Translations under genes and position numbers: made by a program
The notes under the pieces: model-generated
The model's input: only the letters and a program-made list of their open reading frames with translations
Told to the model about the DNA's origin: nothing
Databases searched by the model: none
Shown: piece after piece, positions 29,927-40,316 of the stretch
Layout: each line of letters opens with the position of its first letter
How positions within the stretch are numbered: position 1 is the stretch's first letter
Assembly (NCBI GenBank): GCA_007693965.1
Contig: RECQ01000046.1
Location: 124,001-188,000 of the forward strand
From: Phycisphaeraceae bacterium
Lineage (GTDB): Bacteria > Planctomycetota > Phycisphaerae > Phycisphaerales > UBA1924
Direction: 5' to 3'
DNA: 64,000 nucleotides

Positions 29927-30017
29927 CGTGTCCCCAACCCTCTGTCAGATAAGAAGATGGCGTCCTGAGCCCGCTCAGCCCTCCTGCGAGCCCTTTCCCC
30001 GGACTTCCGTGCCTGTC

Positions 30018-30302
30018 TCAGTCCACGGCCTCGACCGCGGTCACCTCCGGAATGTTGTGCTTCAGATTCTGCTCGATCCCCATCCGCAGCGTCATGGTGC
30101 TGGAGGGGCAGCCGACACAGGCGCCGTGGAGCCGAATCCGGACCACGCCCGCGCCCGTCACCTCGACCAACTCGATATCGCCCCCGTCGCTCTGCACGGC
30201 GGGGCGGATCAGATCGAGAATCCGTGAGACTCGATCGCTCAGCGGGAGTTCCTGTGCAGACGCTGCGCGATCTGCCGCTGGTGTGGTGGACGCTTTCGCC
30301 AT
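30018..30302 (-). CDS. NifU-like C-terminal domain iron-sulfur carrier (NfuA type)
   Basis: A 94-residue iron-sulfur scaffold or carrier. It shows LIRPAVQSDGGDIELVEV and the cluster-binding GACVGCPSSTMTL (CxxC), then LRMGIEQNL. There is no A-type domain as in NfuA of enterobacteria. TAGAAT ends six bases before the ATG and there is no ribosome site, so the mRNA is probably leaderless. Divergent from the lipoprotein gene. Confidence 0.92.
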   Translation of the reverse strand: MAKASTTPAADRAASAQELPLSDRVSRILDLIRPAVQSDGGDIELVEVTGAGVVRIRLHGACVGCPSSTMTLRMGIEQNLKHNIPEVTAVEAVD

Positions 30303-30308
30303 GGCCCG

Positions 30309-30314
30309 ATTCTA
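30309..30314 (-). promoter_or_regulatory. -10 element of the nfuA-like gene
   Basis: TAGAAT on the minus strand, six bases before the ATG, predicts a transcript beginning at the start codon. Confidence 0.5.
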
Positions 30315-30435
30315 CGGCCCCGAATGCCTCCGGGCCAACGTGTGAGCCGATCCGGCGATTCCGAAGGGCCTTTCCGGGCGGCGCCGGTGGATCGCCCTGC
30401 CCGGCCGATCGGGGCCGCCACGCATGGCGCGGGCG

Positions 30436-30441
30436 TACACT
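30436..30441 (+). promoter_or_regulatory. -10 element of the lipoprotein gene
   Basis: TACACT ends seven bases before ATG 30449, predicting a leaderless or nearly leaderless mRNA. Confidence 0.45.
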
Positions 30442-30448
30442 GACTCGC

Positions 30449-32008
30449 ATGCGACCGAGAATCCAGCCCACACGACGCTCCCAGGACATGCGAGCACATC
30501 GGAATCCAGCCCACAGACGCTGCAGCGCCTTCACACTGGCAGGCGCCCTCGCCGGCGCTATGACGATCTGCCTGCTCGGCGCCGGCTGCGCGGGGGACAA
30601 GACGGATCCACAGTCCGTCACCGCAACCGACACCACCGCCCCGCTGCGCTATCGCGTCGAGGCCATGCGCCGCGACTGGGAAGCTCTGCGCGACAGCGAT
30701 GCAGATCGCGCCGCATTCCGTGAATCACTCAAGAGCATCGCCTGGCGACGCAGCGAGCCCCCGACGCTCCGCCTCGGCGCCATCGAAATCCTCGCCGACG
30801 ATGACCCGGACGACACCGCCGCCATGCTCGCGCTCATGCTTCCGACGGAGACGAGCTGGGACATCATCGGCGCCGTGTGCGAGATGGGCGTCGAGCGGCA
30901 ATGGACAGGTCTCACGCCCGCGCTGGTGCGGAGCTGGTCGCGCCCTGTGCCTCGTCCAGGCGATGATGCGCGCCCGGAGCGGGCCGCCATCGCTGCGCTG
31001 CATCCGGATCGCTCCATCGAGAGCGTCGTCTTTGAAGTTTTTTCCACGCCGACCGAAGGGCGCTCCGCGGAGCGGGCCCGCGCCGACGCATGGGCCCTGC
31101 TCACCCGCATCGACGACGGGGGACAGCGCACGCGCGACATGCTGCTCGCGATGGATGAAGAGCCTGATGATCCGCTGCTCGGCGCCCTCCACGCCGGCGC
31201 TGTCAAGCTTCGGGCCGTCCCCGAGACAACCGAGCAGCTCGATCTGCTGCGCCGCATGCGAGCGCCTGAGCGGCGCGAATTCTGGATGCAGAGCGCCGAC
31301 GCCATCGCTCGCCTGAACGACGCACAACTCCAGGGCTTCGAGCTGCGCCACGCATCGGGCGTTCGATGGGCCGCGATCTTTGCGCCGCACCTGCTTGAAG
31401 CGTCTCGCGAAGAGCTGCTGTCGGATGCAAGGCGCGCTCTCGACGGCGTTCGCCCTTACCACCGCACCGTCGACCACGCCGATGTCATGGCGGCGCCGAA
31501 GGAGACGCTGGACGAGTGGCACGATCACCTCTCCTACGGCGACCTGCTCCTGATCATCATCGCGAAGAAGGCCATCGAAGATCCCTACGTCGTTGAACAG
31601 CTCTTCGAGCAGGCCGACGCCGACCGGCGCGACGGCTCAACCGAATACGGCGGCGTGCTCGACGCGGTCTGGCCGAGCGATGCAGGCGCCGACCGCTCCA
31701 CCATCGCGACGCCCCGCTTCGACGCACTGCTCTTCCCGCCCCGCCCCAACCAGCGGCACGGACCCAACCGCTTCGTCGCCTCACCCGAACTGCTCGACAG
31801 GGGCACGGATGCGCTCTTCCACTACCACTTCCACGCCCAGCGGCACAACAACCGCGACTACGCCGGCCCGGGACAAGGCGACTTCGAATACGCCCGCCGC
31901 TTCGGTCGCTCGTGCCTGGTCTTCACTTTCATCAACCGCAACACGCTGAACGCGGATTACTTCCAGCCCAACGGCGCGACGATCGACCTTGGCGTCATCA
32001 CGCGCTGA
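30449..32008 (+). CDS. Lipoprotein of unknown function
   Basis: A 519-residue protein from ATG 30449; an in-frame ATG at 30488 gives a more usual signal peptide. A basic start is followed by a hydrophobic helix and the lipobox LLGAGC. The body is helical and Arg/Asp-rich, with a HEAT-like middle. The C-terminal third has FHYHFHAQRHNNRDYAGPG and ends with FINRNTLNADYFQPNGATID, which suggests a globular domain. No family is recognised. The M48 protease gene starts 39 bases later. Confidence 0.75.
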   Translation: MRPRIQPTRRSQDMRAHRNPAHRRCSAFTLAGALAGAMTICLLGAGCAGDKTDPQSVTATDTTAPLRYRVEAMRRDWEALRDSDADRAAFRESLKSIAWRRSEPPTLRLGAIEILADDDPDDTAAMLALMLPTETSWDIIGAVCEMGVERQWTGLTPALVRSWSRPVPRPGDDARPERAAIAALHPDRSIESVVFEVFSTPTEGRSAERARADAWALLTRIDDGGQRTRDMLLAMDEEPDDPLLGALHAGAVKLRAVPETTEQLDLLRRMRAPERREFWMQSADAIARLNDAQLQGFELRHASGVRWAAIFAPHLLEASREELLSDARRALDGVRPYHRTVDHADVMAAPKETLDEWHDHLSYGDLLLIIIAKKAIEDPYVVEQLFEQADADRRDGSTEYGGVLDAVWPSDAGADRSTIATPRFDALLFPPRPNQRHGPNRFVASPELLDRGTDALFHYHFHAQRHNNRDYAGPGQGDFEYARRFGRSCLVFTFINRNTLNADYFQPNGATIDLGVITR

Positions 32009-32047
32009 GATTGCGTTCTCCTCGGCTGATCGCCAGAGCCTCATCCT

Positions 32048-33604
32048 TTGCTGCATCCGCTGATCATCATCCTGATCGCCGTTTTCTTCGTGCACCAGGC
32101 GAAGGGTGTGTGGTTCGAAGTTCCCGGCGTCGGCGCGGCCGAAGCCGCAGCGCTCACCTTGTCAGCGCACTTCATCATCGCCGTCTTCACCGGGCTGTGG
32201 CTGATGCGTCTGGCACGCCTCATCGATCGCACCGGAAGCGTACGGCTGGTGAACGCGGGCGAGCGGATCGTCCTTCTCTCGCAGATCCTCGCAACCGCAG
32301 TGCACGCAGTCGCTGTCCTTGCGCTGGGCTGGCTCGACGCCGTGCGCGCTGTCACCGGCAATCTGGTGCTGGTGGACGAGGCCATCGCCATCCTGCCCCC
32401 CCTGCTCGTCTTTGTTGCGGGATGGTGGTCCTTCTACCCCATCGAACGCCGCCTGCGCGAGGCCATGCTGCTACGTACGCTTGACCGCGGCGAGCCGGTC
32501 CACCCGATCCCAACCCGCTGGGCCTACGTCTGTGATCAGGCCCGGCACAAGGCGCTGATCATCCTGGCGCCGCTGGCGTTGATTCTCGCATGGCACGAGA
32601 TCGTGGTCACCGGCGCCGGCGCTCTCGCAGGGCGTGCTCCGTGGCTCGCCGACCCGAGCATTGGTCCGGCTGCGATCTCCGGCGCCCAGTTGCTCGGCGT
32701 CGCCGCGATCTTCCTCATCTCGCCCTTCATCGTGCGCATCATCTGGAACACCGTGCCGCTCGGCCCCGGTGAGCTGCGCTCAAGTCTCGAAGACTTGTGC
32801 CGGCGCCACCGCGTGCGTGTGCGCCGCATGCTGGTGTGGCGCACGCACGGGATGATGATAAACGGCGCTGTCGTGGGCCTGATCGCGCCGCTGCGCTACA
32901 TCCTGCTCACCGACGCCCTTCTCGAACGCCTGCCGCAGGAGCAGATCGAGGCGGTGATGGCCCACGAGGTGGGGCACGTGCGCCGGCGCCACATCATCTG
33001 GTTGCTCGGGGCCCTGATCACCACGCTGGGCGTCTCACTCGCGCTCTTCCTGCTGCCGCTCGAACTGATCGCCGGTCGCTTCGCGCTCACCGTCGGCTCG
33101 CCGCTGGTGCAGACCTATGAAACGCTGGCGATGATCGGCTCCATCGGGGCGGCGCTGCTGGTCTTCGGCTACATCAGCAGGCGCTTCGAGCATCAGGCCG
33201 ACGCCTTCGCCGCCCTGCATATGAGCGGCCTGACGCGCGACAACGACGGCGCCGGAGTCGTGATGACCGAGGAGGGCGCCGAAGCCATGGCCGGCGCCCT
33301 CGGCGCCGTGGCCCGCCTGAACCACATCCCGCCGCAGAAGTTCACCTGGCGTCACGGGAGCATCGCGGATCGGCAGCGGGCCCTCCGCGCCGCCGTCGGC
33401 GTGAGCGCCCGCGCGCTTCCGATCGACCGCGCTGTGCGCCGTCTCAAACTCCTCACGATTCTCGGGCTGGTGGCGCTGGCCGGGCTGACCGCGTGGGAGA
33501 TCGCCGCCCAGTCGCGTCAATCGACCGCTTCGATGATCAGCGATTCATACTGGTCGACGACTGCCTCGATGCATTGGATGTGTGCTCCTGAGCCACCGTG
33601 GTGA
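32048..33604 (+). CDS. M48-family membrane zinc metallopeptidase
   Basis: An integral membrane protease of the HtpX/Ste24 class, 518 residues from a TTG at 32048 with no clear ribosome site. Several membrane helices cover residues 1-240; the zinc motif is HEVGH near residue 305, and the third ligand lies in EHQADAFAALH. The last 28 codons (after QSR) look unlike coding sequence of this genome. In the +2 frame from 33517 the DNA reads SIDRFDDQRFILVDDCLDAL and stops at 33591, so a frameshift near 33515 is possible. Confidence 0.87.
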   Translation: MLHPLIIILIAVFFVHQAKGVWFEVPGVGAAEAAALTLSAHFIIAVFTGLWLMRLARLIDRTGSVRLVNAGERIVLLSQILATAVHAVAVLALGWLDAVRAVTGNLVLVDEAIAILPPLLVFVAGWWSFYPIERRLREAMLLRTLDRGEPVHPIPTRWAYVCDQARHKALIILAPLALILAWHEIVVTGAGALAGRAPWLADPSIGPAAISGAQLLGVAAIFLISPFIVRIIWNTVPLGPGELRSSLEDLCRRHRVRVRRMLVWRTHGMMINGAVVGLIAPLRYILLTDALLERLPQEQIEAVMAHEVGHVRRRHIIWLLGALITTLGVSLALFLLPLELIAGRFALTVGSPLVQTYETLAMIGSIGAALLVFGYISRRFEHQADAFAALHMSGLTRDNDGAGVVMTEEGAEAMAGALGAVARLNHIPPQKFTWRHGSIADRQRALRAAVGVSARALPIDRAVRRLKLLTILGLVALAGLTAWEIAAQSRQSTASMISDSYWSTTASMHWMCAPEPPW

Positions 33605-33639
33605 TCCACCCTTCCACGAGCCGCAGCGCTGCAAATCTC

Positions 33640-33645
33640 TACAAT
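33640..33645 (+). promoter_or_regulatory. -10 element of dapF
   Basis: TACAAT ends six bases before the dapF ATG and there is no ribosome site, predicting a leaderless mRNA. Confidence 0.5.
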
Positions 33646-33651
33646 CGCGCC

Positions 33652-34620
33652 ATGCGGTTCACCAAGGTCGAAGCCCTCGGCAACGATTTTCTCGCCATCG
33701 ACGGCCTCGCTGAGACTACGCTCGCGCATCTCCCCCAGCGACCCGACTTTCCCGAGCTGGTCCGCGCACTCTGCGATCGCAGCTGCGGCGTGGGGGCGGA
33801 CGGCGCGCTCGTCCTCGGCCCACCCGACGACCCCGACGCCGTCGATTTCCGCATGCGCATCTTCAACGCCGACGGCGCCGAGGCGGAGATGTCCGGCAAC
33901 GGGCTGCGCTGCGCCGCGATGCTGGCGCACGCGCGGCTGGGCCTGCTGAGCCAGCGCGTTCAGACCGGCGCCGGCGTGCGCGCGGTTGAGGTCCGGACCG
34001 ATGAGAGAGGACAGTTCACAGGCGCCATCGTCGACATGGGTGAACCGGTTTTTGATCTGGAGAAGATCGGTGTGATTCAGGACCGGCTCGCCGCAGCGGT
34101 GGAGGGCGCGATCGTGCCACCGACCGCCGTCCGCGGCGGTCGGTGTGGTGAATCGTCCATCGACACTGGGAAGCACCGACCGCCGGGGACGGCGGTCGGT
34201 GGCACGGTTGAGCACACTGTTTCGGGTGTGCGCGGAATACTCGTCTCGATGGGAAATCCCCACTTCGTCACCTTCCTCGACGAGCCGCCGAAATCGCAGT
34301 CGGCAGAGCTGGCGCATCTCGGCGCCGCGATCGAGCGCCACCCGGCGTTCCCGAACCGGATCAACATCGAGTTCGTCCACGCCCCCCTTCGCGACCGCGC
34401 GTTCGTCCTTCCCTGGGAGCGCGGCGTGGGCTTCACGCTCGCCTCCGGCACCGGCGCCTGCGCGGCCCTCGTCGCCGGCGTCCTTGCCGGCCGGCTCGAT
34501 CGCGAAGCAGAAATCGGATCGCCCGGCGGGGCGCTGCGCGTCCGCTGGGACGAGGCCTCCGGGCGTGTGTTCCTCGATGGACCGGCCACGATCGTCTCCG
34601 AAGGAGACTGGCCGCTCTGA
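33652..34620 (+). CDS. dapF: Diaminopimelate epimerase family protein, both catalytic cysteines replaced by serine
   Basis: DapF interconverts LL- and meso-diaminopimelate for lysine and cell wall, using two cysteines. The fold is clear: VEALGNDFLAIDG, SCGVGADGALVL, FNADGAEAEMSGNGLRC, SMGNPHFVTFLD and ERGVGFTLASGTGACAALVAG. The usual CGNG cysteine is Ser81 (TCC codon) and the usual ACGTGA cysteine is Ser265 (TCC). The protein is 322 residues, about 45 longer than usual, because a palindromic repeat at 34113-34206 is translated as residues about 155-185. Ser/Ser DapF-like proteins may have another role; epimerase activity is doubtful. Confidence 0.88.
   Translation: MRFTKVEALGNDFLAIDGLAETTLAHLPQRPDFPELVRALCDRSCGVGADGALVLGPPDDPDAVDFRMRIFNADGAEAEMSGNGLRCAAMLAHARLGLLSQRVQTGAGVRAVEVRTDERGQFTGAIVDMGEPVFDLEKIGVIQDRLAAAVEGAIVPPTAVRGGRCGESSIDTGKHRPPGTAVGGTVEHTVSGVRGILVSMGNPHFVTFLDEPPKSQSAELAHLGAAIERHPAFPNRINIEFVHAPLRDRAFVLPWERGVGFTLASGTGACAALVAGVLAGRLDREAEIGSPGGALRVRWDEASGRVFLDGPATIVSEGDWPL
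34113..34206. repeat. Palindromic REP-like element inside dapF
   Basis: CGTGCCACCGACCGCCGTCC (34113-34132) and its exact reverse complement (34187-34206) are the ends. Just inside lie GGCGGTCGGTG (34135-34145) and CACCGACCGCC (34174-34184). Each end can therefore form its own hairpin, or the whole can form one. The insert keeps the dapF frame open. Confidence 0.9.
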
Positions 34621-34672
34621 GCGGCCCTGCGCCCCCGCACGCCGTCGATCCCACGCCGCCGCGCGGACCCAC

Positions 34673-34678
34673 TACCAT
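34673..34678 (+). promoter_or_regulatory. Possible -10 element of the SucC-like gene
   Basis: TACCAT lies 41 bases before the GTG start, inside the dapF-sucC gap. No clear -35 is seen. Confidence 0.3.
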
Positions 34679-34719
34679 GCCCCGCCCGGCAATTTCCCTC
34701 CGGCGAGAGCGAGACACAC

Positions 34720-36324
34720 GTGGCCAGACTGCACGAACATCACGGAAAATCACTGCTCGCCAGGGCCGGGGTGGCGATCCCGAAGGGGCACGTCGCCCGC
34801 ACGCCCGCCGAGGCCGCCCACGCCGCCCGGGACATCGGCGGGCGCGTGGTCCTCAAGATCCAGGCCTGGACCACCGGCCGGGCGGCCATGGGGGGCGTCG
34901 CCTTCGCCGACACGCCGGATGCGGCCGAGGCCGCCGCCAGGAAGCTGCTGGGCATGAAGGTCGGCGCCTTCCCCGTCGAGCAGGTGCTCGTCGAAGAAGC
35001 GGTGAAGATCCGCGATGAACTCTTCGTCTCCATCACCATCGACGACGCCGCCCGGGCGCCGGTGATGCTGTTGTCGCTCGAAGGCGGCAGCGGCATCGAA
35101 GAACGCGGCGCCGATGTGCACCGGCTGCCGATGGACGTGCGCGCCGGCCTCGACTCCGCCGCCCTGCGCCGCCTGCTCGCCGAATCGAAAATCGACAAGT
35201 CCATGCACGAGAAGCTCGCGGACGCCATCGAGCGCATCGCGAAGCTGGCGAAACAGGTCGAGGCCCGCTCGCTGGAGGTCAACCCGCTCGTCACCACCGA
35301 AGACGGGCGCGTCATCGCCGCCGATTGCCGAATCGCCATCGACGACTACGCCGTCTTCCGCCACCCCGACCTCGGCATCGACATCGCCCGCGAGCTCGAC
35401 CACCCGCCCACCGACCTCGAACGCACCGCCTACCGCATCGAGCAGGCGGACCACCGCGGCACCTTCTACTTCGCCCAGCTTCCCGTGCCCGACGATGCGC
35501 ATGATCGCGCGGTCGGCTTCCACGGCGCCGGCGGCGGGGGATCGATGATGTCGATGGACGCCGTCGGCCGCGCCGGCTTCGCGCCCGCCAACTTCACCGA
35601 CACCAGCGGCAACCCCTCCGCCGCCAAGGTGTACGCCGCCGCCCGCATCATCCTGGCCCAGCCCGGCATCGTCGGCTACTTCGGCTCCGGCAGCGGCGTC
35701 GCCAGCCAGGAGCAGTACCACTCGGCGTACGGCTTGGCCAAGGCGTTCCTCGAACTCGGCCTCGACATCCCCGCAGTGGTGCGCCTCGGCGGCAACAGCG
35801 AGGACCGGGCCGTCGAGATTCTCGAGGACGCATGCCGCGGCCTGAAGGCGAGTGTGAAAGGATTCAAGAAGGACGATCCTCCCGAGAAGTGCGCCGAGGC
35901 GTTCGCGCAGCTCGTGAAGCAGAACGGCGCGAAGGCGTGGAAGCCGCGCGAGCGCCGCGTGCCCGCCTTCGTCGGCGACACCGACGCCGACAGCTTCGCC
36001 ATCCGCTTCGGCGGCGACTGGGGCGGCTCAGTATGGATCGACGTCGAGCGCTGCACGCCCGAAATCACCGACCTGGTCGTGAAACACAGCGGCGGCGTCC
36101 TGAAGAAAGACGAGCAGGGCTTCCCGACACTGGCGATCTCGAAGGAGGAAGCCGCCTCGCGCGATTCAGAGATGATCGCCTGCGAGATCGAGTGCATCCG
36201 CGCCGGGCATCCGGTGGTCTTCGTCGATCTGCCCATCACCGGGCTGGACAGCGAGGCGAGCCACGGCATCGCCGCGGCCATCGAGGGCGGCGCGGCGACG
36301 GTCAACCCGGAGGGGCACGGCTGA
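34720..36324 (+). CDS. SucC-like acyl-CoA synthetase beta subunit, candidate citryl-CoA synthetase large subunit
   Basis: An ATP-grasp plus CoA-ligase protein that would form an acyl-CoA from a carboxylate, CoA and ATP. The N-terminal part is ATP-grasp (RLHEHHGKSLLARAGVAIPKG, VLKIQAW, LEVNPLV). The central CoA-ligase part has GGGGSMMSMDAVG, TDTSGNPSAAKVYAAAR and VVRLGGNSEDRAVEIL. The 534-residue length far exceeds SucC (about 390), from a C-terminal extension of about 130 residues that I do not recognise. The start is GTG 34720 with a weak GAGA. It pairs with a SucD-like gene after one base, and a citryl-CoA lyase-like gene follows. Succinyl-CoA or malyl-CoA synthetase are alternatives. Confidence 0.75.
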   Translation: MARLHEHHGKSLLARAGVAIPKGHVARTPAEAAHAARDIGGRVVLKIQAWTTGRAAMGGVAFADTPDAAEAAARKLLGMKVGAFPVEQVLVEEAVKIRDELFVSITIDDAARAPVMLLSLEGGSGIEERGADVHRLPMDVRAGLDSAALRRLLAESKIDKSMHEKLADAIERIAKLAKQVEARSLEVNPLVTTEDGRVIAADCRIAIDDYAVFRHPDLGIDIARELDHPPTDLERTAYRIEQADHRGTFYFAQLPVPDDAHDRAVGFHGAGGGGSMMSMDAVGRAGFAPANFTDTSGNPSAAKVYAAARIILAQPGIVGYFGSGSGVASQEQYHSAYGLAKAFLELGLDIPAVVRLGGNSEDRAVEILEDACRGLKASVKGFKKDDPPEKCAEAFAQLVKQNGAKAWKPRERRVPAFVGDTDADSFAIRFGGDWGGSVWIDVERCTPEITDLVVKHSGGVLKKDEQGFPTLAISKEEAASRDSEMIACEIECIRAGHPVVFVDLPITGLDSEASHGIAAAIEGGAATVNPEGHG

Positions 36325-36325
36325 T

Positions 36326-37234
36326 ATGGCGATCCTGATAGACAAATCCAAACGCGTCCTCGTGCAGGGCATCACCGGGCGCGAGGGCCGGGCCCGCACG
36401 CGGCTGATGCGCGACTACGGAACCAACGTCGTCGCCGGCTGCACGCCGGGCAAGGGCGGCGAAGACGTCGAGGGCGTGCCGGTGTTCAACACCGTCGCGG
36501 ACGCCCAGCGCTCCGCGCAGGAGAGCGGCGCAGTCGTTGACATTTCTGTGATCTTCGTCCCCGCGCGCCTCGTGAAAGACGCGGCCATCGAGGCGATCGA
36601 GGCGGGCGTGAAGCTGCTGCTGCTCGTCCCCGACCGCGTGCCCATGTGGGACGCGATGGAGATCGCCGCCGCGGCGAAGGACCACGGCGCCGCCTTCATC
36701 GGGCCAAACACGCTGGGCGTTCTGTCACCGGGCGAGGCGGTCATCGGCATGATCGGCGGCCGCGCCGAGTCGGCCCGCGAATGGTTCAAACCCGGCGATG
36801 TCGGCGTCATCAGCCGCAGCGGCGGGATGACATCGTCCTGCGGCTACTACCTCGGCCGCGCGGGCGTCGGCCTGTCCACACTCGTCCACGTCGGAGGCGA
36901 CGCGGTGCTCGGGCTGCGCATCCCCGATGTCGCCCTCATGTTCGAGAACGATCCGCAGACCAGGGCCATCGTCCTCTTCGGCGAGATCGGCGGCAGCCAG
37001 GAAGAAGACCTCGCGCGGCTGATCGCTGAGAAAAAGGTGACCAAACCCGTCATCGCCTACATCGGCGGCAAGGCCGCCCGCGAGGGAACGCGCTTCAGCC
37101 ACGCGGGCGCCATTATCGAAGGCGCCCGCGGCACGCACGAGGGCAAAGTGAAAGCCCTCCGCGAGGCGGGCGCGACGGTGGTGGACGGGTTCGGGGAGCT
37201 GCCGGAGGCGGCGGTGGGCGTACTGAGCCGTTGA
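36326..37234 (+). CDS. SucD-like acyl-CoA synthetase alpha subunit, candidate citryl-CoA synthetase small subunit
   Basis: A 302-residue alpha subunit that binds CoA and carries the phosphohistidine. Visible are VLVQGITGREGRARTRLM, GCTPGKGG, FIGPNTLGVLSPGEA, VGVISRSGGMTSSCGYYLG and FSHAGAIIEGARGTHEGK, with the active histidine in SHAGA. It starts one base after the SucC-like stop, so the subunits are coupled. The specificity assignment rests on the citryl-CoA lyase-like gene downstream. Confidence 0.8.
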   Translation: MAILIDKSKRVLVQGITGREGRARTRLMRDYGTNVVAGCTPGKGGEDVEGVPVFNTVADAQRSAQESGAVVDISVIFVPARLVKDAAIEAIEAGVKLLLLVPDRVPMWDAMEIAAAAKDHGAAFIGPNTLGVLSPGEAVIGMIGGRAESAREWFKPGDVGVISRSGGMTSSCGYYLGRAGVGLSTLVHVGGDAVLGLRIPDVALMFENDPQTRAIVLFGEIGGSQEEDLARLIAEKKVTKPVIAYIGGKAAREGTRFSHAGAIIEGARGTHEGKVKALREAGATVVDGFGELPEAAVGVLSR

Positions 37235-37314
37235 TATCGAATGCCTATGGACAAGGGCGACACATTGATGCGACGGCACGGTCCGTTCCGACTAAAATTT
37301 CTTCAGGAGAACCC

Positions 37315-37590
37315 ATGAAGGAAAAAATCAAAATCTCCAAGGAACAGCTTGAGGAGCTCTATCGCAGCGGCGCCCCAATCGTCGTGCCGGTGGAAGGCGG
37401 CGGAGAAGTGGTTGTCCAGGACGCCGACGCCTATCGACGGATGCTGGCGGTGCTCAATGAACTCGATGTGATCGAGAGCGCCCGCATCTGCTCCGAACGA
37501 TGGGAGGCCATGCGCACCGCCGGGGATCCTGGCATGCCTGTCGCCGATTTCTTCGCGGATGTGCGTCGTCGACTGCGGCCCGCCGGATGA
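37315..37590 (+). CDS. Phd/RelB-like antitoxin candidate
   Basis: A 91-residue protein with a strong AGGAG five bases before ATG 37315. An N-terminal ISKEQLEELYRSGAPIVVPVEG segment is followed by a helical DADAYRRMLAVLNELDVIE, resembling the dimerisation and toxin-binding parts of Phd/YefM antitoxins. A 21-codon frame overlaps its stop. It interrupts the synthetase-lyase gene set on the same strand. Confidence 0.6.
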   Translation: MKEKIKISKEQLEELYRSGAPIVVPVEGGGEVVVQDADAYRRMLAVLNELDVIESARICSERWEAMRTAGDPGMPVADFFADVRRRLRPAG

Positions 37591-37652
37591 AACGCCGGCG
37601 AGTCACGGTCGCAGCCGATGCGCGGGGTGAGGTGGAATGCGAGATGAACTGA
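37587..37652 (+). pseudogene. 21-codon ORF, possible toxin remnant
   Basis: ATG overlaps the antitoxin-like stop (ATGA) and opens MKRRRVTVAADARGEVECEM before TGA. The start resembles that of ParE/RelE toxins, but the body is missing. It may be a truncated toxin or chance. Confidence 0.25.
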
Positions 37653-37693
37653 CAGAGCCCTGACTCCCTCGAATACAACTGCGAAACAACACC

Positions 37694-38491
37694 ATGCCCG
37701 ACCCCTGGCCCACCGCCATCACCAACATCAAGCCCAACAGCGTCCGCGTCCGCGGCTACGACATCGCGGAGCTGATGGGGCGCTGCTCGTTCGGGCAGAT
37801 GGTCTATCTCCTGCTGCTCGGCGAGCCGCCCGACGCCCCGACCGGGCGTCTGATGGAGGCGATCCTGGTCTCGAGCGTCGATCACGGCGCCACGCCGCCC
37901 AGCGCGCTCGCGGCGCGAACCGTCGCCTCGACGGGGGCTTCGCTCAGCGCCTCCGTCGCCGCGGGCGTCATGAGCATCAACCGGCATCACGGCGGCGCCA
38001 TCGAGGCGTGCGCCCACACGCTCGGCGAAGTGGTCGAAAAGGCACGCTTCGGCAAGACGCTCGATGAAGCGTCGGATGACGTGATCGGCGGCTACAAAAA
38101 GCGCGGCGAGCGCATCGCCGGCTTCGGCCACCGCGTCCACACCGCCGACCCGCGCACCAGGCGCCTCTTCGAGCTCGCCGCGGAAGCCGGCGTCGGAAAC
38201 ACACCCGACACCGAGCCCAGCCACGTCGACGCCGCCCGGGCGCTCGAGCGCGCCTTCGCCCGCGCCGGCAAGCCGCTGCCCATCAATGTCGACGGCGCCA
38301 TCGGGGCGATCCTCGCCGATCTCGGCTTCGACCACGCAACCATGAATGGCATCTTCATGATCGCCCGTGCGCCGGGTCTGGTCGCCCACGTCGTCGAGGA
38401 GCAGCATCGCATGAAGCCGATGCGCAAGATCGATCCCGCCAGCCACACCTACGACGGACCCGCCGATCGTACAGCGCCGAACCAGGAATAA
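37694..38491 (+). CDS. Citryl-CoA lyase-like protein (short citrate synthase family)
   Basis: A 265-residue citrate-synthase-fold protein, far shorter than citrate synthase (about 370-430) and the size of the CclA citryl-CoA lyases of the Aquificales. Catalytic residues are in place: His64 in SVDHGATPPS, His98/99 in NRHHGGAIE, His146 in GFGHRVH and Asp200 in INVDGAIG, with APGLVAHVVEEQ closing the active site. It would cleave citryl-CoA to acetyl-CoA and oxaloacetate, or run in reverse. It lies downstream of the SucC/SucD-like pair. Confidence 0.78.
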   Translation: MPDPWPTAITNIKPNSVRVRGYDIAELMGRCSFGQMVYLLLLGEPPDAPTGRLMEAILVSSVDHGATPPSALAARTVASTGASLSASVAAGVMSINRHHGGAIEACAHTLGEVVEKARFGKTLDEASDDVIGGYKKRGERIAGFGHRVHTADPRTRRLFELAAEAGVGNTPDTEPSHVDAARALERAFARAGKPLPINVDGAIGAILADLGFDHATMNGIFMIARAPGLVAHVVEEQHRMKPMRKIDPASHTYDGPADRTAPNQE

Positions 38492-38502
38492 CGTTCACCG
38501 CC

Positions 38503-39072
38503 ATGGCCCAGCGCCCCACACTCACCACCGACCGCCTCATCCTGCGGCCCTTCGAGCTTTCCGACGCCGGCAATGCCCAGCGGCTGGCGGGAGATAAGAA
38601 AGTCGCCGCCACCACGCTCTCGATCCCGCACCCGTACCCCGACGGCGCCGCAGAGGAGTGGATCGGGACGCACCAGGCGGCGTTCGATGAGGGGAATGGC
38701 GTCGAGTTCGCAATCACCGATCGCGAAAGCGGCGAGCTGATCGGCTCGATCGGCCTGCGCATCAGCCGCGAACATGCGCACGCCGAGCTCGGCTACTGGA
38801 TCGGCGTTCCCCACTGGGGCAACGGCTACGCCACCGAAGCCGGGCGGGCCGTCATCGACTACGGATTTCGCGAGTTGTCATTGCGGCGGATCCACGCCCA
38901 CCACGCACCCCGCAATCCCGCCTCCGGACGCGTGCTCGAGAAGCTGGGAATGCGCCCCGAGGGCGTCATGCGCGAACACATTTTCAAGTGGGGTGAGTTC
39001 GAGGACTGCGTGCTCTACGGCCTGCTCAGGAGCGAGTACGATTCCGATTCCGCCTCCGCCGCGCGTCGCTGA
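38503..39072 (+). CDS. GNAT-family N-acetyltransferase (RimJ/RimL type)
   Basis: A 189-residue acetyl-CoA-dependent acetyltransferase. It begins with RLILRPFELSDAGNAQRL and has AELGYWIGVPHWGNGYATEA, the acetyl-CoA pyrophosphate loop, then RRIHAHHAPRNPASGRVLEKLGM. This is the RimJ/RimL group, acting on protein N-termini or small amines; the substrate cannot be told. It starts 11 bases after the citryl-CoA lyase-like gene. Confidence 0.9.
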   Translation: MAQRPTLTTDRLILRPFELSDAGNAQRLAGDKKVAATTLSIPHPYPDGAAEEWIGTHQAAFDEGNGVEFAITDRESGELIGSIGLRISREHAHAELGYWIGVPHWGNGYATEAGRAVIDYGFRELSLRRIHAHHAPRNPASGRVLEKLGMRPEGVMREHIFKWGEFEDCVLYGLLRSEYDSDSASAARR

Positions 39073-39120
39073 GCCGGGCCGGCGCAGGTTCCACTTCGAC
39101 CACTCCCTGGAGTTTCATCC

Positions 39121-39705
39121 GTGCCGCACACAACCGAGCAGATCGCAGAGCTTCTTCCCGAGATCATGGACATCACCGACGCCGGCCTGCGCGACAAGGT
39201 CGCCGCAGTGTGGAGCGAGGCCATCGAGACCGGCGCCGGCGGCAAGGGTTGGACATTCGATGAGCTCCGCGCCGTCCCCTTCACGCTCCTCGCCGGCGAC
39301 ATCGACCTGCGCTACATCGAACACCTGCGCTCATGCGCACAGCAGTGCATGTCCATCGCGGATGTGCTGAACAACATCTTCGGCGACCGCATCCCCATCC
39401 ACCGCGACCACCTGCTCGCGGGCTCGCTGCTGGCCGACGTCGGCAAGCCGCTGGAGTTCGACCGCGATGCGGCCGGCAAACTCATCAAGGGGCGCTACGG
39501 CGAGATGCTCCGCCACCCCTTCAGCGGCGTGGCCATGTGCTACAAGCACGGCATCCCCCCCGAGGTGATGCACATCGTCGCCACCCACAGCCACGAGGGC
39601 GACAAGGTGGAGCGCTCGATCGAGAGCATCATCTTCCACCACGCGGATTTTGTGGACTTTGATATTGCGAAGTTCCTGGGCAAGCACGGATCGAACCGGC
39701 CCTGA
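39121..39705 (+). CDS. HD-domain phosphohydrolase-like protein
   Basis: A 194-residue protein from a GTG at 39121. The HD segment is RDHLLAGSLLADVGK, with later histidines in HPFSGVAMCYKHGIP, HIVATHSHEGD and FHHADFVDFD that could complete a two-metal site. The substrate is unknown. It is on the same strand as the GNAT gene, 48 bases after it. Confidence 0.8.
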   Translation: MPHTTEQIAELLPEIMDITDAGLRDKVAAVWSEAIETGAGGKGWTFDELRAVPFTLLAGDIDLRYIEHLRSCAQQCMSIADVLNNIFGDRIPIHRDHLLAGSLLADVGKPLEFDRDAAGKLIKGRYGEMLRHPFSGVAMCYKHGIPPEVMHIVATHSHEGDKVERSIESIIFHHADFVDFDIAKFLGKHGSNRP

Positions 39706-39711
39706 CCACCG

Positions 39712-39717
39712 TATAAT
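39712..39717 (+). promoter_or_regulatory. -10 element (TATAAT) of the nucleotidyltransferase gene
   Basis: A consensus TATAAT ends five bases before ATG 39723, with no ribosome site between them, predicting a leaderless mRNA. Confidence 0.6.
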
Positions 39718-39722
39718 CCGCC

Positions 39723-40316
39723 ATGAGCGCGAGTTCTTCCGATTCAACTGATCTTCTGCAACGGATGGTGGATGCCGTGGAGCTGGTTCGGCGTCGTCTG
39801 CTGAAAGCATCGGCCGCGCTCGGGAGCGCCGGCATCGACTACGCAGTGGTCGGGGGCAACGCAATCGCGGCGTGGGTCGCCACGGTGGATCGCGCTGCGG
39901 TCCGCAACACGCAGGATGTTGACATCATGATCCGGCGGCAAGACCTCGACGCCGCCTCGAAGGCGTTGGAGGGAGCGGGCTTTGTCCACCGCCACGCCCG
40001 GGGGCTGGATCTCTTCCTCGACGGCCCCGACGCCGGCCCGCGCGAGGCGGTGCATCTGGTCTTCGCGGGTGAGCTGGTCAAGCCGGGCGAGCCTGCTTCG
40101 AACCCCGATGTCGTCCCCTTCACGGACATGGGCGCCTTCCGTGTACTGAATCTCGAGTCGCTGGTGCAGATCAAGCTCACCGCGTTCCGCGACAAGGACC
40201 GCACCCACCTCCGCGACCTGATCGAAGTCGGGCTGGTCGACCAGTCCTGGACGGACCGGCTGCCGCCGGCGCTGGCCGAGCGACTACAGGGGATACTCGA
40301 CACTCCGGATGGTTGA
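39723..40316 (+). CDS. Nucleotidyltransferase-fold protein (AbiEii/MNT-like)
   Basis: A 197-residue protein with a minimal nucleotidyltransferase core: GIDYAVVGGNAIAAW and NTQDVDIMIRR, the GG and DxD motifs. The later VLNLESLVQIKLTAFRDKDRTHLRDL helix is typical of AbiEii and related toxin-type transferases and of stand-alone housekeeping ones. It is the first gene of a short accessory block that includes an Mrr nuclease. A tRNA- or nucleotide-modifying toxin or defence role is inferred. Confidence 0.75.
   Translation: MSASSSDSTDLLQRMVDAVELVRRRLLKASAALGSAGIDYAVVGGNAIAAWVATVDRAAVRNTQDVDIMIRRQDLDAASKALEGAGFVHRHARGLDLFLDGPDAGPREAVHLVFAGELVKPGEPASNPDVVPFTDMGAFRVLNLESLVQIKLTAFRDKDRTHLRDLIEVGLVDQSWTDRLPPALAERLQGILDTPDG

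Follow-up and report, generated by a model that had tools for sequence, protein, structure and literature searches.

A DapF-family protein with serine at both catalytic cysteine positions in a Phycisphaeraceae bacterium

A dapF gene with two serine codons

Our analysis concerns a 64,000-nucleotide stretch of contig RECQ01000046.1 from a Phycisphaeraceae bacterium (hereafter the window), in which a gene of the DapF family follows an M48 peptidase gene. The features on which the argument rests are these:

32048..33604, + strand: M48 peptidase gene upstream of dapF (Pfam M48; start codon not settled)
33652..34620, + strand: DapF-family gene with Ser/Ser at the catalytic pair (open reading frame and translation, 322 aa; TIGR00652 and PF01678 matches)
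33670..33675, + strand: codons 7-8, Glu-Ala in place of His/Gln-Gly (also in 7 of 12 acidobacterial Ser/Ser DapFs)
33892..33894, + strand: codon 81, TCC, Ser at the first catalytic Cys position (MSGNGLR; translation, alignment)
34106..34213: double palindrome, in frame within the variable loop between the two domains of dapF (arms 34106-34145 and 34174-34213; repeat search)
34444..34446, + strand: codon 265, TCC, Ser at the second catalytic Cys position (ASGTGAC; translation, alignment)

The dapF gene runs from an ATG at 33652 to a stop codon at 34618-34620, the longest open reading frame beginning at 33598. Its product scores 219.5 bits against the curated DapF model TIGR00652 (cut-off 114.65) and 145.6 bits against PF01678, the sole Pfam family reported at an E value of 0.001. 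Ser81 and Ser265 align onto both catalytic cysteines of DapF, which we take to be Cys73 and Cys217 in E. coli numbering, so that the protein lacks the cysteine pair of this family. Translation and alignment thus confirm what a sequence-only reading had claimed, namely that both catalytic cysteines are replaced by serines encoded by TCC. Five other cysteines are retained (41, 45, 87, 165 and 270), which argues against a general drift from cysteine to serine. Read by eye, the PROSITE signature PDOC01029, in the form with Cys quoted in PMC8225329, breaks at Ser81, and the protein also has Ala at residue 76. A search of the genome (3.48 Mb, 74 contigs, 97.7% complete) found one PF01678 gene, the window dapF itself; the second, canonical dapF that the same reading had named as a possible counter-case was not found there.

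The palindrome in dapF consists of two hairpins in inverted orientation, with 40-nt arms that are 90% complementary and each contain a palindrome, and its fold has a z score of -11.35. The inter-domain loop that holds it measures 67 aa, compared with at most 65 and mostly 33-52 in the other rows of the family. The window genome contains the exact 28-mer hairpin pattern at this place only, and 2 of 100 genomes of the family have it, the window's own and G224. An Rfam search of positions 30000-40000 gave no match at the gathering threshold. Downstream of dapF, the region 34720-38491 holds a succinyl-CoA-ligase-like beta and alpha pair, whose NCBIfam scores fall short of the cut-offs, and a citryl-CoA lyase that passes the cut-off of NF004869; their similarities suggest a two-step citrate-cleavage set. 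The ligase-like beta gene has a match in the dapF flanks of 5 of the 55 family rows.

Conservation and modelled fold

We defined conserved columns as those at 95% or more in 107 DapFs from outside both the family and the acidobacterial set described below (105 of the 107 being Cys/Cys), which gave 51 columns. The window protein keeps 47 of these, its departures being G8A, S76A, C81S and C265S, and other family rows depart at 0 to 20 of the 51. Residues N11, N83, N202, N238, E256 and R257 are invariant in alignment A1; we take the conserved Asn, Glu and Arg residues of DapF to be substrate-binding. The GC3 value of dapF is 0.82, against 0.85-0.91 in four adjoining genes. The AlphaFold model has a mean pLDDT of 90.4 and displays the two-domain DapF fold, with values below 50 only at residues 161-176 and 178-183, within the palindromic insert. 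Ser81 and Ser265 directly precede modelled helices 82-96 and 266-278, and the cysteines of solved DapFs likewise stand at helix N-termini (PMC12039745).

The nearest solved relatives of the window protein are DapFs by sequence as well as by fold, and its first 26 PDB fold matches are either DapFs, two of them bound to RppH, or O-ureidoserine racemase. In sequence as in modelled fold, the protein is thus a member of the DapF family. Judged by its conserved positions, it is not in general decay: with 4 of 51 conserved columns changed, the binding residues kept and a confident model, the earlier opinion that the change is not random decay is borne out. By its catalytic residues, it nonetheless does not qualify as a diaminopimelate epimerase, and annotation as one should await an assay.

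Descent and distribution of serine-bearing DapFs

Both of our trees place the window protein within its own family. In one it belongs to a set of 19 tips, the other 18 being family rows, with a FastTree support of 0.957; in the second, from which 2 of 106 rows were omitted as too short, it falls into a 36-row set with an SH-aLRT of 96, in which 33 rows belong to the family and 3, the window among them, carry no group label. Its nearest rows differ between both trees. As in the window, 37 of the 55 family rows have a tblastn match to the M48 gene that precedes dapF in the same orientation; in L149, the match lies elsewhere in the flank. We conclude that the window dapF is the family's own, vertically inherited gene. 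Horizontal gain from the acidobacterial Ser/Ser lineage was considered and rejected on the trees and the shared M48 neighbour. The acidobacterial proteins are placed elsewhere in both trees, and this separation makes the double Cys-to-Ser change look convergent. An approximately unbiased (AU) test of a single origin of Ser81 with L165 and L168, the two family DapFs with serine at the first site, gave p = 0.864 on a quick tree with long branches that leaves out L113 and rows at most 60% filled. Within the family, Ser81 and Ala8 may therefore go back to a single event, and even then Ser265 would be peculiar to the window protein.

Cysteine pairs dominate among the relatives. A DapF match was found in 184 of the 198 genomes of the class sample, and all 29 loci examined from the 183 other genomes with a match are Cys/Cys. 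Of the 100 genomes in the family sample, 55 gave a DapF match (54 above cut-off), and 50 of the 55 rows besides the window align as Cys/Cys. L149 is Cys/Ser, whereas L165 and L168 have the reverse, Ser/Cys. Trimming to 420 aa removed the second site of L166, whose untrimmed motif has Cys, and L170 ends at the first catalytic site. The 175-row alignment, with all proteins trimmed to 420 aa, omits one class locus (L112, Cys/Cys). Among the best 80 of 551 loci, the exceptions to Cys/Cys are L015 (Ser/Ser), L042 (Ser/Cys) and L075 (Cys/Ser). The genomes searched included no further species of the window's genus, and we found no description of natural Ser/Ser DapFs among the open-access papers searched.

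The serine-bearing family members differ in their surroundings. L149 has Glu7 with Gly8, and its genome (G254) carries DapB and LysA above cut-off; the DapF of its congener G287 (L151) is Cys/Cys. L165 (G207) and L168 (G198) are strongly diverged, with Ser at the first site and Ala8, and depart at 11 and 20 of the 51 conserved columns, respectively; their genomes lack DapB above cut-off.

The Ser/Ser protein L015 comes from a record entitled “Acidobacteria bacterium”, a title that is the sole ground for the group name used here. With this protein as query, each of 12 genomes of its order (that of G293) gave exactly one DapF match, and all 12 proteins align as Ser/Ser; three representatives (P0002, L254 and L264) score above the DapF model cut-off. 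In G293, the only one of the 12 checked for DapB, dapB directly adjoins dapA. LysA is above cut-off in 3 of the 12 genomes (G297, G298 and G299); the G293 match, at 281 bits, lies just below it and those of the other eight reach at most 108.7 bits. At least some genomes with Ser/Ser as their only detected DapF thus carry genes that make or use diaminopimelate (DAP). For 10 of the 12 acidobacterial dapFs, the gene neighbourhoods were assessed, in part by eye, and nothing in them pointed to another substrate.

Other changes accompany the serine pair. Glu7 occurs in 12 of the 13 Ser/Ser rows against 4 of the 155 Cys/Cys rows, the combination Glu7-Ala8 in 8 of 13 (window included) against none of 155, and Val259 in 11 of 13 against 8 of 155; these counts reflect few independent events, since a single order supplies 12 of the Ser/Ser rows. 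Within the family, Ala8 is found in all three rows with Ser81 (the window, L165 and L168) and in none of the 51 Cys81 rows whose residue 8 can be read. Against such a link, 4 Cys/Cys rows from outside the family have Ala8 too, and His7-Gly8 is retained in the serine-bearing L042 and L075 and in L264, which is Ser/Ser. An independent-pairs test, in which L164, without residue 7, was wrongly coded as changed, gave a median p of 0.25 from four pairs, too few to reach significance. Over all columns, general convergence between the window and the acidobacterial set is weak: the window matches 6 of the 32 acidobacterial states that occur in at most 20% of Cys/Cys rows, a level that 3 of the 50 Cys/Cys rows of the family also attain, and 2 of 25 when the limit is set at 10%, a level reached by 11 of 50.

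Pathway context and possible roles of the serine pair

DapB was not detected in the window genome, a draft 97.7% complete, by TIGR00036 or PF05173, and the best LysA match scores 114.8 bits, below the cut-off of 297.9; by these two markers, no DAP pathway is detected in the genome. MurE is present, with a DNPR motif that we take to denote the meso-DAP type. The sequence-only reading had offered, as one explanation, that lysine and DAP come from another route such as DapL. DapL consumes the product of DapB. It starts from tetrahydrodipicolinate (PMC3102117), and this precursor would be missing where DapB is undetected; with LysA also below cut-off, the proposal finds no support as it was put. 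The substrate in the window genome is probably not newly made LL-DAP.

The situation is common in the family. Above cut-off, its 100 genomes include 25 with DapB, 33 with LysA and 97 with MurE, and 55 have a DapF match; some are incomplete, which makes single absences unsure. DapF accompanies DapB in 24 of 25 genomes and occurs in 31 of the 75 without DapB, the window's included, the other 44 having no DapF match. The window dapF would hence be one of many that outlive the pathway. Among 50 MurE loci examined in 49 genomes (L189-L218 and L223-L242), 49 contain the DNPR motif, L226 giving no match. Set against MurE above cut-off in 97 of the genomes, the lack of DapB in 75 and of DapF in 45 raises the question of where the third peptidoglycan residue comes from. 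Ten family genomes (e.g., G119 and G230) have LysA above cut-off and neither DapB above cut-off nor a DapF match.

We tentatively favour, at somewhat short of an even chance, the view that the window protein represents a Ser/Ser form of the DapF active site that is being maintained. It would probably still be a proton-transfer enzyme. Known DapFs remove the alpha proton with a thiolate and return one from a thiol on the opposite face (PMC12039745). Here, the two serine hydroxyls, each at the N-terminus of a central helix, would take over the transfer of an amino acid's alpha proton, and Glu7-Ala8 would be part of the adaptation to the serine pair, the states at residues 7, 8 and 259 being common in the acidobacterial Ser/Ser group and rare in Cys/Cys DapFs. 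We put this functional view first because the Ser/Ser pair is found in 12 of 12 acidobacterial genomes and the remaining active site is kept. A possible benefit would be escape from oxidative shutdown, in view of the disulfide that switches off the C. glutamicum DapF (PMC5296763). The different isomerisation by serines suggested from the letters of the window is possible, and the DapA-DapB or LysA genes of some acidobacterial members suggest that the pair may even serve the ordinary reaction. A bolder proposal, which we regard as doubtful, is that cofactor-independent amino-acid epimerases have in Ser/Ser a true second catalytic pair. This pair would have arisen at least twice, in the window's lineage and in the acidobacterial order, where it is the only detected DapF, with Glu7-Ala8 as the adaptation letting a hydroxyl do a job thought to need a thiolate.

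Several alternatives have to be weighed against a maintained variant. Single Cys-to-Ser mutants of PddB have less than 0.1% activity and M. tuberculosis DapF is said to behave alike (PMC8225329). Since such engineered mutants are nearly inactive, a dead remnant is a serious rival, although on balance the less likely reading: selection on DAP epimerisation may be gone in the window genome, with DapB undetected and LysA below cut-off, and a DapF no longer needed after the loss of both might have been inactivated recently, still folded but on its way out. The 44 DapB-less family genomes without any DapF match, the palindrome inside the reading frame and the eroded conserved columns of the serine-bearing L165 and L168 all fit such a course. 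It accords poorly with an intact reading frame with a GC3 of 0.82, with a protein changed at only 4 of 51 conserved columns, two of which are the catalytic pair itself, and with the recurrence of the same pair in all 12 genomes of another order.

Improbable is a one-base lyase or dehydratase, in which one serine would remove a proton and elimination rather than inversion would follow. The proline racemase superfamily has a Ser/Thr member that is a dehydratase (PMC4113996), and such enzymes appear among the PDB fold matches of the window model, but the window sequence and its conserved columns are those of DapF, and the acidobacterial genomes with DapA-DapB (G293) or LysA (G297-G299) have no other DapF match. 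Slightly less probable again is a non-catalytic role, in which the protein would be kept to bind a partner or sense a ligand. A complex with RppH is known for E. coli DapF, solved RppH-DapF complexes (6d13 and 6vck) are among the fold matches and the substrate-binding residues are kept; against this, the present data indicate no partner and the family retains Cys/Cys in at least 50 of its 55 other rows. A sequencing or assembly error at codons 81 and 265 is hardly credible: the assembly is in 74 contigs, but two separate codons both read TCC while the other cysteine codons are TGC or TGT, and the linked Glu7-Ala8 would have no reason to arise by error.

Comparison with known systems sharpens these choices. 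With DapF (TIGR00652, PF01678), the window protein shares sequence family, modelled fold and substrate-binding residues, and differs in its Ser/Ser pair and in a genome with no detected DapB and no LysA above cut-off. The histidine racemase HisR of Fusobacterium nucleatum is likewise a DapF homologue in an organism without a DAP pathway, acting on another substrate; unlike the window protein, it retains both cysteines, and its turnover is “greatly reduced” when either becomes serine (PMC11602996). The window protein lacks the cysteine pair expected of a HisR. Natural serines at the first position also occur in the same fold superfamily, in an active Ser/Cys 4-hydroxyproline epimerase and in trans-3-hydroxyproline dehydratase, whose Ser stands opposite a Thr that takes no part in catalysis (PMC4113996). 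Both belong to the proline racemase family and have Cys or Thr at the second position, where the window has Ser; the window protein itself is not a member, its PDB dehydratase matches sharing about 14% identity. The laboratory DapF mutants C73S and C217S (PDB 2q9h and 2q9j) bear serine at the same sites, but they are engineered and single, whereas the window presents a natural double replacement. By analogy, the Ser/Ser pair could be a two-base epimerase in adapted surroundings, a one-base lyase, or dead.

A working Ser/Ser DapF would challenge the accepted mechanism of a thiol-thiolate pair. Its natural occurrence in all 12 genomes searched of the acidobacterial order, some with DapA-DapB or LysA, means that either hydroxyls suffice in the right surroundings or meso-DAP is made otherwise. 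A cysteine-free form would also matter for inhibitor design, since DapF has been put forward as an antibacterial target to be hit at its cysteines.
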